A stretch of 37,323 nucleotides of DNA from the NCBI GenBank assembly GCA_030835125.1, contig JAUQWM010000055.1, positions 1 to 37,323 of the forward strand. Reading direction: 5' to 3'. Each line of letters starts with the position of its first letter. Position 1 is the stretch's first letter. Source of the DNA: Gemmatimonadaceae bacterium (GTDB lineage: Bacteria; Gemmatimonadota; Gemmatimonadetes; Gemmatimonadales; Gemmatimonadaceae). Below the pieces are notes generated by a model, which did not search any database, was not told the DNA's origin, and was given only the letters and a program-made list of their open reading frames with translations. This document shows positions 2,783 to 26,076 of the stretch, in pieces. The translations under genes were made by a program, and so were the position numbers.

Positions 2783-3949
2783 TCATTCCTGCTCCGCCGC
2801 GGCAAGGGCCAGCGAAGTGACGTCCACCAGCGACCGCCCGGTCGCCTGCGACACCACCCGCACGTCTTCGTACTCCGGCTTCCCACGCTGGCTACCGCCA
2901 GGCAGGGTCGCCACCTTCACCCGAACCGGGTGACCCAGCACCCGCACTGTCCGCTGTTCACGCCGCAGGGCGCGACGTTCCACGGGGGTCCGACGGATCC
3001 CCAGTGTCGTCGTCGTGCCGAACATCTCGTCCTCGAGCCGCCGTGCATCCGCCGGCCGCGCCAGCACCTCCAACCGGACCCCCACCCTCCCCTTCTTCAT
3101 CTGCACGGCCACCGACGTCACGTCCAGCGCCCCACATTCGCGAAGGTGTTCCGCGGCGCTCGCAATATGCTCTGCGGACATGTCGTCCAGGTCGGTCGCC
3201 AGCATCACCAGCGCTTCCACGTCGTCCCCGGTGGCGGTCGACTCCGCGAGCACGATCCGCAACGCATTCGGTCGATCCGCGAATTCCCTCGTCCCCGCAC
3301 CGTACCCACTGCGAACGGGCACGTGTGCCGGTGGCGGGCCTTCAGAAAGCACCCGGACCAGCGCCGCGCCCGTCGGCGTCACCAGTTCGCCCGACCCCTC
3401 GGGTCCGTGGCGCACCAGCAACCCCTCCAACAACCGCTGCGTCGCGGGAGCCGGAACCGGCAGGAGGCCATGCGCCGTCCTCACCGATCCGTCCCCCAGG
3501 GCAATCTCGCCACAGTAAACGCGCGACACTCCCAATTCGCTCAGCCCCCAGATCGATCCCATGACGTCCAGGATGGCATCGACCGCCCCGACCTCGTGCA
3601 GGTGCACGCGATCCACCGTGGACGCGTGGATTGACGCCTCGACTTCGGCCACCGCCGTGAATGCGGCATCGGCCTTTTCCTTGACTGACTCCGGGGCGTC
3701 GGACCGGCGCACGATCTCGCGAATCTGCTTGAGGTGCCGGCCATGCGGCTGCGGTGGAATGTCGAAGTCCACCTTCGTGCAGGCAACCTGGCCGCGCATC
3801 GCGGGTGCAACGCGAACGCCGACGCCCTCGAGCCCGAGCCGGCCCGGAAGCGCGCGCAGCCACTCCGGCTCCAGGCCCACGCCAACGAGCGCGCCGAGGG
3901 TCATGTCGCCGGAAATGCCGCTGAACGGGTCGAGGATCGCGATAGTCAC
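2783..3949 (-). CDS. larC: LarC, nickel insertion for the pincer cofactor (DUF111)
   Basis: A 388-residue LarC-family protein. LarC uses CTP to insert nickel into the pyridinium-thiocarboxylate precursor made by LarB and LarE, giving the nickel-pincer nucleotide of lactate racemase and related isomerases. The family N-terminus is clear (TIAILDPFSGISGDMTLGAL), as are VDRVHLHEVGAVDAILDVMG near residue 120 and LATDLDDMSAEHI near residue 250. The start is a GTG with CAGGT 4-8 bases before it. In Lactiplantibacillus larC is read through a frameshift as LarC1/LarC2; here it is one unbroken frame. No larA, larB or larE is in the window. It sits 54 bases after thrC and is likely in the rlmH-bshC-murJ-uvrC-thrC run. 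Confidence 0.9.
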   Translation of the reverse strand: MTIAILDPFSGISGDMTLGALVGVGLEPEWLRALPGRLGLEGVGVRVAPAMRGQVACTKVDFDIPPQPHGRHLKQIREIVRRSDAPESVKEKADAAFTAVAEVEASIHASTVDRVHLHEVGAVDAILDVMGSIWGLSELGVSRVYCGEIALGDGSVRTAHGLLPVPAPATQRLLEGLLVRHGPEGSGELVTPTGAALVRVLSEGPPPAHVPVRSGYGAGTREFADRPNALRIVLAESTATGDDVEALVMLATDLDDMSAEHIASAAEHLRECGALDVTSVAVQMKKGRVGVRLEVLARPADARRLEDEMFGTTTTLGIRRTPVERRALRREQRTVRVLGHPVRVKVATLPGGSQRGKPEYEDVRVVSQATGRSLVDVTSLALAAAEQE

Positions 3950-19967: not shown

Positions 19968-22394
19968 CTAGAAGACCTGACCAAACCTGAAATGTAATTG
20001 CCACTTGGGCGCGCGTCTTCCCGAAAAGTCCAGCCGGTCCAGGCCATAGGCGTAGTCGAGGCCCAGGGGACCGAACGGGGTGATGACGGACGCCCCGATG
20101 CCCAGGCTCCGGAAGAGGCGGGTCGGGTCGATTTCCCGCGCCCGGCGCCAGACGTTCCCGGCCTCGAAGAAGGTATTCACGTAGAGGCTCTGGTTCATCC
20201 GCAGGCCGAGTTCCGCGGTCGTCGCGAAGAACGCCTTGCCGAACGAGTTCCGCTGGGCGTTGTACGTGCTGGTCCCGATGAGGTACCCGTCCGGGGTGAT
20301 CGAGAACTCCTCATAACCGCGGAGCCGCTCGCCGTACTGGACGCCGCCGAGGGCAAACTCCTGGCTGAAGAAGAACGGGCCGGTGCTGCCCAGGACCGCG
20401 CCGCCTCGGGTCGTCAGGCCGGCCACGAAGAGCATCGGCTGCTGGCCAGGCTTCTCGCCACCGATCTGCCCGAGCGGGACATAGGCGCTGCTCTCGGTCG
20501 TGTATCGCTGGAAGGACGACGTACCGCCCAGGGGACCGCCGGTGAACGACATGCTCAGGGACTGGCTGCCACCGCTGGTGGGGAACGGCGTCCCATTGCG
20601 CGTGTCGCGCGTCAGGGTGACGCCCACCGATGAGCGGAACGAGTTGTTGCCATAGAGCGCGCCCGTCTCGCCCAGCAGGCCGGAGTCGCCGAACTTCACG
20701 CCTTCGCCCGCGTACGACAGGAACACGCGGGTCCAGAGGTCGAAGGGCACCGGGAATCCGATCTGGACCTGGCCACCGGTCCGGAGGCTGCGCCCGAGGT
20801 CCGCGATGTAGTAGCGAGCCATCGTCCGGTAGAGCGTCACGGTCCCGGAGACCATCGACTGCCGGATGCGCGGGTCGGAGTACGACAGGTTGAAGTCATT
20901 GAAGTACCGCCCGAACTGCCACTGCAGCGCGCCACGCTTGCACATGCCGAAGAGGTTCGGCTGGTCGAGGCCGATGAAGCCGCCGAAGCCGGTGCCCTGC
21001 CCCATCGACGCGCCGAAGTTGACGTTGCCGGTGCGCTTCTCCTTCACCCGGAAGATCAGGTCGATATCGCCCTGCTCATTCACCCGGCGCTGGTCCGGCG
21101 GCGGGAGCGGCGTCTCGAAGAACCCGAGGTTGCCGATGCCCTGCCAGCTCTGGATCAACCGCTGCTGGTTGTAGACGTCGCCGGGAAGGATGACCAGCTG
21201 GTCCCGGATGCACATCTCGGTCGTATAGTCGTTCCCGATGATCTCGATCCGGTTGATGACCGCCGGCGCGCCTTCCTCGACCTCCCATCGGAGGTCCACG
21301 TAGTGCGTACTGTCCGAGGTGACGCGTCGCTCCACGACCGGCACGACCTGGGAATAGATGTAGCCATCGTTGGCGTACGACTCCCGGACGAGGTTCGTCG
21401 CCGATTCCCAGCGGGCCTGGTCGAAGACGTCCTGGGGAACGGGGTCCCGGCGGAGCAGGAAACCCGTCACCCGCGACGCCAGCGGCCGGCTGGTATTGGC
21501 GAACGGGTAGTACTCGCGGACTTCTTCGTCGGAATAGTGCCGCCCGCCGACGACCTCGAAGTCGCCGACCTTGTACTGCGGACCCTCCACGACCGTGAGC
21601 TCGAGCAGTGCCTTGCCGTGTTCGCGATCGATATGGAGCGTGTCCCTGGCGATGTGGAAGTCGATGAAGCCGCGACTCGCGTACAGCGCGGGGATGCGCT
21701 CGGAGAGGTCGGTCGCGTATTCGTCGTCGCTGATTTCGCCCGTGCGGAAGAACCAGAATCCCTCGGGGCGTGTCTTCATCGCCGCCGCGATGTCTGCGGC
21801 CGGGACGTTGGTGTTGCCGGTGACCCGGAGGCCGGACAGCGCCAGGCGCCGGCCCTCTTCGACCGTGAACGTCAGCCCGACGGTCCCTTCGGACACGACG
21901 GTCGATTCGGCGCGGACCCGGGCCAGGTAGTACCCCGCCTTCTCGTACGTCGAGTCGATCTTGAACATCGCGCGCGCCACGGCGGCCGGATCGAGCGGCC
22001 GGGCTGCCGGCAGCTCGGCCAGGTCGCGGATCTGCCGCTCGGACAGCCGGTTGACGCCACGGACCTGCACCGCCTCGAGGACAGGGCGTTCCCTGACCTC
22101 GAAGATGAGCACGGCCCGCGGCGCCGGCGTCGTGACCTCCTCACACATGAGGTTGATCGACTCGAAGTTGCCGGTTTCGTACAGGTCGCGCGTGGCGCGC
22201 TGCAGGATCCGGTAATTGAGCTGGGTGCCGGGGATCAGCGCCGTGGTCTGGACGATGGTCCCGACGTCGACCCGGCGATTCCCCCGAACGGCAATCGAGT
22301 CGGGGGTCGCACACCGGCCAGCCGCGAGATCCTGGGCTGAAAGGACGCCCGGGACGGCGGCGAAGACGAAGAGCGAGAAGGCTTTGCGGAGCAT
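19968..22394 (-). CDS. bamA: BamA, outer membrane protein assembly factor
   Basis: An 808-residue Omp85 protein, the core of the machine that inserts beta-barrels into the outer membrane. A signal peptide (MLRKAFSLFVFAAVPGVLSA) is followed by POTRA repeats at about residues 25-400, for instance IAVRGNRRVDVGTIVQTTALIPG, VRGVNRLSERQIRDL, LRVTGNTNVPAADIAAAMKTR and FEVVGGRHYSDEEV. The 16-strand barrel takes the rest, with LRGYEEF matching the loop-6 (V/I)RG(F/Y) motif and a C-terminal FRFGQVF ending in Phe, the usual barrel signal. The ATG at 22394 was chosen for its signal peptide; upstream in-frame starts run back into clpC. A TATATT box ends 7 bases before the ATG, so the mRNA may be leaderless. 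Confidence 0.95.
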   Translation of the reverse strand: MLRKAFSLFVFAAVPGVLSAQDLAAGRCATPDSIAVRGNRRVDVGTIVQTTALIPGTQLNYRILQRATRDLYETGNFESINLMCEEVTTPAPRAVLIFEVRERPVLEAVQVRGVNRLSERQIRDLAELPAARPLDPAAVARAMFKIDSTYEKAGYYLARVRAESTVVSEGTVGLTFTVEEGRRLALSGLRVTGNTNVPAADIAAAMKTRPEGFWFFRTGEISDDEYATDLSERIPALYASRGFIDFHIARDTLHIDREHGKALLELTVVEGPQYKVGDFEVVGGRHYSDEEVREYYPFANTSRPLASRVTGFLLRRDPVPQDVFDQARWESATNLVRESYANDGYIYSQVVPVVERRVTSDSTHYVDLRWEVEEGAPAVINRIEIIGNDYTTEMCIRDQLVILPGDVYNQQRLIQSWQGIGNLGFFETPLPPPDQRRVNEQGDIDLIFRVKEKRTGNVNFGASMGQGTGFGGFIGLDQPNLFGMCKRGALQWQFGRYFNDFNLSYSDPRIRQSMVSGTVTLYRTMARYYIADLGRSLRTGGQVQIGFPVPFDLWTRVFLSYAGEGVKFGDSGLLGETGALYGNNSFRSSVGVTLTRDTRNGTPFPTSGGSQSLSMSFTGGPLGGTSSFQRYTTESSAYVPLGQIGGEKPGQQPMLFVAGLTTRGGAVLGSTGPFFFSQEFALGGVQYGERLRGYEEFSITPDGYLIGTSTYNAQRNSFGKAFFATTAELGLRMNQSLYVNTFFEAGNVWRRAREIDPTRLFRSLGIGASVITPFGPLGLDYAYGLDRLDFSGRRAPKWQLHFRFGQVF

Positions 22395-22401
22395 GGGGGC
22401 T

Positions 22402-22407
22402 AATATA
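22402..22407 (-). promoter_or_regulatory. Probable -10 box of a leaderless bamA promoter
   Basis: On the minus strand TATATT is followed by 7 bases and then the bamA ATG, so transcription would start at or next to the A of the start codon. No ribosome site lies in those 7 bases (AGCCCCC). No good -35 is seen; that position falls inside the dyad at 22419-22444. This is inferred from sequence only. Confidence 0.45.
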
Positions 22408-22418
22408 CACAATCGAAA

Positions 22419-22444
22419 CCGGTCGGGTTCGAGTACCCGACCGG
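22419..22444 (-). terminator. clpC terminator hairpin
   Basis: CCGGTCGGGT at 22419-22428 pairs perfectly with 22435-22444 around a 6-base loop. On the minus strand the stem is followed by TTTCGATTGTGT. It lies 29 bases past the clpC stop and 25 bases before the bamA start. An operator for bamA is an alternative reading because it covers the -35 region. Confidence 0.65.
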
Positions 22445-22473
22445 CGATTCGACACCAACTGCGCTGAGAGGGC

Positions 22474-24969
<2,496 letters not shown>

Positions 24970-24993
24970 AAGTCCTCAACGCATTCCGATCCG

Positions 24994-26076
24994 TCAATGG
25001 ATCGGGCCCATCTCCTCGGCAAGGGCCTGTCGCACGAACCGCGCTCGGGCGATGTCCCCCTCGGCTTCCGTCAGCTCACGCCCTTCCGCCCAGGCAAGGT
25101 GCGCCGGCTGGCTGAATATCAGGAGCTTGTTGAGCGTGTATACACTGAGTCCCTGGACCAGTTGCAGGCCTGCCGCCAGCCGTACGCCGCTGAGGAGACT
25201 CATCGCCTCATCGAACGTCAGGCTGCGCGCAAAACGCAGGGTGCCGTACGCGCGCCACAGCTTGTCCTCAATAATATAGCCCGCGTCGCGCCAGAGGACG
25301 CGCCGCGCCTCCTGTTCCCGCTGGATCACGTGCCGCACCACGTTCGACAGGTGATCGACCAGCTCCTCCTCCGACCGTCCCAGCGTCGTCTGGTTGGAAA
25401 TCTGGAAGAAACTGCCCAGTACTTCGCTGCCTTCGCCGTACAACCCGCGGTACGTCAATCCCATCTGCTGCAGCCCGACGAGGACCTTCGGGATCTCCTT
25501 CGTGAGGACGAGGCCCGGGAGGTGGATGAGCACCGACGCGCGCATCCCGGTTCCGGTATTCGTCGGACAGGCCGTGAGGAACCCGAACTCCCGGTGGAAC
25601 GAGTACGGCACGCGGCGTCCCAGCTCCTCGTCGAGCCGCGAAATGGACGCCAGCGCCGCCTCGAGCGCGAAGCCCGAGCGCACCGCCTGCAACCGCAGGT
25701 GATCCTCCTCGTTGATCATGACGCCCACGCCGTCGCCGACGTAAACCGCGGCGCCGCCCCGCGCGCCTGACGCCGACTCGAGGCCGGCCAGCTCGCGGCT
25801 GATCACGTGGCGCTCGTGCAGCAGCCGCCGGTCGTCCTGGTCCAGTTCGTCCACCCGCACCAGCACGCCCCCACCAAGGGACGGCACGGCCGGCACGGCG
25901 TCGCGCACCTGCGCCAGGATCCGCAGGCGCTCCCCCTCGCGCGAACGACCGGTGAAGGCGTAGCCATCGACGTTGCGCGCCAGCCGCACGCGGGTGCTGA
26001 GTACCACGTCCGACTGGTCGCCCGACGCATCGAGCCACGACAATCCCCCATCGGGGAGCAGCGAGAGGTCGAACAT
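24994..26076 (-). CDS. mcsB: McsB, protein arginine kinase
   Basis: A 360-residue phosphagen-kinase-fold enzyme that phosphorylates arginines on proteins, tagging them for ClpC-ClpP. I begin it at the ATG at 26076, overlapping the mcsA stop by one base; the upstream extension is mcsA out of phase. Motifs are VVLSTRVRLARN at about 25-35, MINEEDHLRLQAV near 120-132, FGFLTACPTNTGTGMRASV with the active-site Cys170, and IPKVLVGLQQMGLTYRGLYGEGSE near 205. The C-terminal phosphoarginine-binding RDxxRA motif reads GDIARA, with Gly in place of Arg. The length agrees with the family (about 350-360). Confidence 0.95.
   Translation of the reverse strand: MFDLSLLPDGGLSWLDASGDQSDVVLSTRVRLARNVDGYAFTGRSREGERLRILAQVRDAVPAVPSLGGGVLVRVDELDQDDRRLLHERHVISRELAGLESASGARGGAAVYVGDGVGVMINEEDHLRLQAVRSGFALEAALASISRLDEELGRRVPYSFHREFGFLTACPTNTGTGMRASVLIHLPGLVLTKEIPKVLVGLQQMGLTYRGLYGEGSEVLGSFFQISNQTTLGRSEEELVDHLSNVVRHVIQREQEARRVLWRDAGYIIEDKLWRAYGTLRFARSLTFDEAMSLLSGVRLAAGLQLVQGLSVYTLNKLLIFSQPAHLAWAEGRELTEAEGDIARARFVRQALAEEMGPIH

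Follow-up and report, generated by a model that had tools for sequence, protein, structure and literature searches.

Between tandem genes, a terminator and a promoter may overlap, the 3' signal of one gene sharing bases with the promoter of the next, and in Escherichia coli the outer-membrane gene bamA is regulated by sigma-E. We compared such systems with the junction of clpC and bamA in a stretch of 37,323 nucleotides from a Gemmatimonadaceae bacterium (GenBank assembly GCA_030835125.1, contig JAUQWM010000055.1; this whole stretch is hereafter called the window). Leaderless genes in which a TANNNT -10 motif adjoins the open reading frame (ORF) are established in Deinococcus-Thermus, as passages of one report describe (PMC12340547), and passages of a survey of bacterial leaderless genes read a TA-like signal ca. 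12 bp upstream of the start codon as the -10 box of a leaderless gene (PMC3160421). Gemmatimonadetes are mentioned in a passage on the class of the anti-Shine-Dalgarno sequence (PMC10783764).

In the window, clpC is the gene upstream of bamA on the minus strand, and the sequence, position, conservation and specificity of the elements between them were computed, as was the hairpin. The junction is very probably a compact meeting point of two transcription units, a clpC terminator being followed by a leaderless or near-leaderless promoter dedicated to bamA. From these elements, we infer the following course of termination, transcription start and translation. The clpC RNA would stop at a GC-rich hairpin directly past the clpC stop codon. 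A promoter serving only bamA, consisting of GRACCN, a spacer of mostly 16-18 nt and TATATT preceded by GTG, would then start an RNA at the bamA ATG or a few bases away from it (a leader of at most ca. 4 nt), and ribosomes would initiate on this leaderless or near-leaderless mRNA without a Shine-Dalgarno (SD) sequence. In the genome of the window, the loop and 3' arm of the terminator would also hold the -35 element.

The -10 box and the start codon of bamA

The original prediction placed a 10-bp dyad after clpC and a TATATT ending 7 nt before the bamA ATG, and both were found at exactly these positions (Table 1). It also held that no ribosome site lies between them, and neither GGAG, GAGG nor AGGA occurs in the tested stretch of 15 nt before the ATG. 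This ATG, at 22394, looks sound because the protein read from there opens, as judged by eye, like a signal peptide (MLRKAFSLFVFAAVPGVLSAQ). A mechanical ORF call puts the start at 22523, 43 codons upstream and within clpC, an error that automatic annotations may carry too; a TANNNT ca. 6 nt upstream is thus a start-codon cue that such a caller missed.

BamA relatives were present in 59 of 60 genomes (G047 gave no bamA match), and the nearest named BamA records are from two Gemmatimonadaceae metagenome-assembled genomes (85% and 66% identity), with five further records more distant. The junction was read in 35 of the 36 Gemmatimonadaceae genomes among the 60, G008 being left out with bamA fragments only, and in a second set of 20 further Gemmatimonadaceae genomes out of a 200-genome draw from the phylum. 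In the first set, an exact TATATT lay 5-11 nt before the bamA start in 30 of 35 loci, and three more (L018, L023 and L061) had it with one mismatch; in the second set, TATATT preceded bamA in 19 of 20. The gap between box and ATG in the 30 exact loci was 6 (14 loci), 7 (2), 8 (9), 9 (2) or 10 nt (3), so that 25 fell within 6-8, and in the second set it was 6 (13), 8 (2) or 9 nt (4). The commonest gap of 6 would set the A of the ATG as +1. For the window, with a gap of 7, transcription is predicted to start at the A of the ATG or no more than about one base away.

The box occurs mostly as GTGTATATT in surroundings that are poorly conserved. Among 31 genus representatives, chosen for a box matching at least five of the six hexamer bases, the GTG preceding the hexamer was kept at 77-81% per base; the remaining upstream columns reached 29-58%, save for a single column of the -35 region with 68%. 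An SD-like 4-mer stood ahead of bamA in only 2 of the 33 boxed family loci. These comparisons suggest that bamA has its own promoter with a -10 box abutting the ATG, as originally proposed; the strictly leaderless mRNA of that proposal is better put as one that is leaderless or carries a leader of at most ca. 4 nt.

Two loci are noted for their bamA frames. In L064 (genome G024), TATATT is present after the hairpin, but the expected position of the ATG reads GAGGCTGAAATCC and the bamA start must lie elsewhere; in L026 (G007), the bamA reading frame of that assembly carries a single in-frame TGA.

The probable -35 element and the specificity of the proposed promoter

Of 53 family loci, 28 have a G[GA]ACC whose first base lies 21-24 nt ahead of TATATT. 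Among the genus representatives, 16 of 31 have the motif at that position. The other 4-nt windows tested averaged 0.51 and never exceeded 2, and 2000 shuffles averaged 0.29 and never exceeded 3. Of the 22 genera whose hexamer follows GTG or ATG, 15 have the motif, as does one of the nine with other boxes. In the window, the element lies in the loop and 3' arm of the hairpin; many genera with short spacers likewise have it within the stem-loop, and in long-spaced ones it stands apart from the hairpin. Its sharp position, together with its presence away from the hairpin in six of eight long-spacer genera, argues against a by-product of the stem. A strict scan listed no TTGACA-like -35 at a spacing of 16-18 nt, the conserved element being GRACC instead. 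G(G/A)ACC probably serves as the -35 box of bamA, and the earlier statement that the dyad covers the -35 position can be narrowed to a probable GAACC element in the loop and 3' arm.

In the 4.48-Mb genome of the window, TGTATATT-N5-11-ATG matched once, at bamA; over the 60 genomes, it gave 63 matches, 22 of which were bamA by coordinates, versus 6 for the reversed pattern. GRACC-N14-18-TGTATATT matched 17 times over the 60 genomes, 15 of them at bamA, with one match for the reversed control; the two elements in combination are thus nearly restricted to bamA. GRACC-N15-17-TGTATA had a single match in the own genome, a count equalled by its reversed control. A regulon sharing the full bamA promoter was sought with these strict patterns in the 60 genomes and in the own genome, and none was found.

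Either a housekeeping or an alternative sigma factor might read the promoter. Use by a sigma factor of the extracytoplasmic function (ECF) type, bamA being an envelope-stress gene as it is in E. coli, is a possible but doubtful variant of the two-unit interpretation, with which its probability overlaps. The near restriction of the strict bipartite motif to bamA speaks for it, and GRACC resembles the -35 boxes of the GGAAC kind known from ECF promoters. However, ECF regulons usually comprise several genes, TATATT shares five of six bases with TATAAT and is thus an ordinary housekeeping-type (sigma-70) -10, and the region upstream of the rRNA genes reads, by eye, TTGACC-N17-TAGTAT, in which GACC is common to GGACC. 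GGACC could be a drifted housekeeping -35, and we lean towards the housekeeping sigma factor; a housekeeping consensus could not be drawn from the upstream regions of tRNA genes, which were too few and too variable to use. A more elaborate scheme is unlikely, namely that a dedicated alternative sigma factor or activator reads a one-gene bamA promoter whose -35 box is concealed within the clpC terminator, that clpC termination and the firing of leaderless bamA are physically linked, and that bamA stays translatable when SD-led initiation is impaired.

Start regions elsewhere in the genome were surveyed in a 747-kb sample in which a simple caller, with approximate starts, gave 548 genes, 328 of them first in their unit, and 664 candidate starts. 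SD-like 5-mers at gaps of 5-9 numbered 44 against 10.8 expected from other positions (ca. fourfold), and the 3' end of the 16S rRNA retains CACCTCCTTA. TANNNT peaked at a gap of 6 with 11 cases versus ca. 2.7 per position, and the mirrored TNNNAT occurred there twice. The SD enrichment rules out leaderless expression as the general rule of this genome and leaves TANNNT as a minor class, which, going by its excess, may comprise ca. 2-3% of unit-first genes. Genome-wide, TATATT-N5-10-RTG had 13 matches versus one for the reversed control. Eleven of the 13 opened an ORF of at least 80 aa, and these include genes that resemble alaS, holA, rnz, pyrR and moaD by eye.

Two further genes have boxes of this type. 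An ORF of the window (2783..3949, minus strand) has TAACTT eight bases before its GTG at 3949, and its protein resembles LarC by eye (ISGDM motif); in locus L093, from another family, a gene with a similar N-terminus has TGTATATT-N8-ATG. The LarC-like gene is possibly a second case of long-kept leaderless expression. In a sister family, apparently the same aminotransferase-like gene carries TGTATATT eight bases before the ATG in five genomes (L089, L090, L095, L097 and L098), which would be a conserved leaderless-type promoter outside bamA.

The hairpin after clpC

The stem of the window consists of 10 perfect pairs. The fold energy of 96 nt is -34.3 kcal/mol (z -3.06), and 2 of 200 shuffles did as well. 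With mismatches allowed, 29 of 34 family junctions folded with z < -2; this count excludes L017, which has no clpC beside bamA and gave a weak false clpC match, and is 30 of 35 with that row. Perfect stems of 8 bp or more were found in 18 of the 31 genus representatives (mean stem 9.3 versus 5.2 in shuffles), in a table that leaves out L017, L020 and two boxless loci. The two methods differ, and in some rows so does the best hairpin of a locus. Stem sequences vary among genera while the pairing persists. Where gene ends of the own genome have 70 nt or more downstream, z < -2 was reached by 23% of 213, versus 5% of 250 intragenic controls.

Four relatives with spacers of 113-269 nt (L014, L025, L027 and L029) separate the two signals. 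In these, the hairpin begins 18-31 nt past the clpC stop codon, and 53-211 nt separate its end from the box. All four keep the box, and three keep the exact -35. Because the hairpin stays near the clpC stop codon there, it is probably the terminator of clpC and not an operator of bamA. The earlier claim that the dyad ends the clpC unit is therefore upheld as probable by comparison, but the T-rich run that it invoked is weak.

Expression of bamA mainly by read-through from clpC, with GTGTATATT acting in the RNA as an AU-rich site that the ribosome or S1 binds in SD-less translation, is quite improbable. Outside the family, bamA starts at or near the clpC stop codon, mostly without an SD, as this explanation would have it, and passages of the leaderless survey describe an AT-rich pre-start signal with suggested S1 binding in Bacteroidetes and other groups (PMC3160421). 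Against it, a hairpin stands between the genes in most family loci, the box is paired in a promoter-like manner with an element 21-24 nt upstream, and the distance from box to ATG ranges from 6 to 10. Moreover, one genus (L017, L187 and L188) keeps the box at bamA with no clpC found in the upstream DNA fetched. Slightly less probable still is that the dyad is an operator or attenuator of bamA bound by a dimeric regulator, as the original prediction had suggested from its position over the -35 region, a position it also has in many short-spaced genera; the palindrome is not conserved in sequence, only in pairing, and the separation of hairpin and promoter in the four long-spaced relatives led us to reject it.

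Several observations weigh against a terminator followed by a leaderless bamA promoter. The T-rich run after the stem is TTTCGATTG, and the U-tract is short (5 T in 8); when 20000..26000 is scanned with strict consensus patterns, no terminator and no sigma-70 promoter are reported at the site. Five of the 34 family junctions fail z < -2, the long-spaced L028 and L020 included, and outside the family 10 of the 43 junctions pass it in the 65 nt after the stop codon, so the hairpin alone is not diagnostic. The box is absent in two of 35 family loci (L030 and L064), and the exact -35 motif is missing from 25 of 53; this motif was spotted by eye in the same sequences in which it was later counted, which makes its test post hoc. 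Gaps of 9 or 10 (5 of 30 loci in the first set and 4 of 19 in the second) permit a leader of up to ca. 4 nt, and both loci with an SD-like 4-mer (L022 and L031) fall among those with such gaps.

Table 1. Features of the clpC-bamA junction in the window; sequences are read on the minus strand.
Feature	Coordinates	Strand	Sequence or detail	Basis
clpC, AAA+ chaperone with two Clp_N repeats	22474..24969	-	end at 22474	ORF; Pfam Clp_N, AAA_2, ClpB_D2-small
10-bp perfect hairpin, probable clpC terminator	22419..22444	-	CCGGTCGGGT-ACTCGA-ACCCGACCGG (22444..22419); weak U-tract TTTCGATT	Exact placement, fold, family junction folds
Probable -35 element in hairpin loop and 3' arm	22426..22430	-	GAACC	G[GA]ACC recurrence in relatives
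Extended -10 element	22402..22410	-	GTGTATATT; hexamer TATATT (22407..22402)	Family conservation
7-nt gap and bamA start codon, without SD	22392..22401	-	AGCCCCC (22401..22395), ATG (22394..22392)	Exact placement; putative start site from box position
bamA, 808 aa, signal peptide (by eye), POTRA repeats, Omp85 barrel	19968..22394	-		Pfam POTRA and Omp85

Probable origin of the junction and comparison with known systems

The junction was also read at 43 loci of five other families, 23 from the same order (f2 and f3) and 20 from the same class (f4, f5 and f9); f6-f8 and f10 were left out. The original prediction had proposed conservation of TATATT near the ATG within the phylum as a check. For bamA, this holds in Gemmatimonadaceae, but TATATT did not occur between -60 and +150 of the clpC stop codon in any of the 43 outside loci, and among the six families read, the module is limited to Gemmatimonadaceae. 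A signal-peptide-like bamA start, taken as the one nearest the clpC stop codon, was called in 35 of the 43, the other eight giving none. Of these starts, 15 overlap the TGA (ATGA or GTGA), 15 lie at 3-23 nt and five at 54-74 nt from the first base of the stop codon. Some candidate start was preceded by an SD in two of the 43 loci and by TANNNT in two. The 4-nt stop-start overlap occurs without an SD in L065, L068, L070, L071, L152, L153, L158, L160, L161, L163 and L165-L169 (15 of 43), which suggests translational re-initiation at bamA outside Gemmatimonadaceae.

The overlap or closeness of clpC and bamA is probably the ancestral state, with bamA formerly SD-less and tied to clpC. From this distribution, with no tree built, we infer that a terminator and a promoter came to separate the two genes in the ancestor of Gemmatimonadaceae. 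Since the bamA start would already have been SD-less, a shift to leaderless expression would be simple. The locus can thus be tested as an example of an essential outer-membrane gene which, within a single order, seemingly exchanged stop-start coupling to clpC for leaderless expression.

The junction differs from the overlapping terminators and promoters of other tandem genes in where its -35 lies: within the stem-loop of the terminator in many genera with short spacers, and outside it where spacers are long. The bamA of E. coli under sigma-E has the same gene product and a -35 of similar look, whereas the -10 in Gemmatimonadaceae is of the TATATT kind. A literature search found no leaderless genes described for Gemmatimonadota, and among the titles returned by a search on bamA and leaderless, none was about a leaderless bamA mRNA. 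As in the passages on Deinococcus-Thermus (PMC12340547), a -10-like hexamer lies ca. 6-7 bp before the start without a leader, in genomes that also have SD genes; unlike there, the estimate for the genome of the window is a few percent of unit-first genes, and bamA has a conserved -35 and a GTG extension in addition. The survey (PMC3160421) likewise takes a TA-like signal before the start as a leaderless -10 box, but its passage on leaderless groups does not list Gemmatimonadota and its main text does not contain the stem 'gemmatimon'. Leaderless genes are thus known from other phyla, and the comparison suggests that bamA of Gemmatimonadaceae adds a case in a phylum unnamed in those passages.
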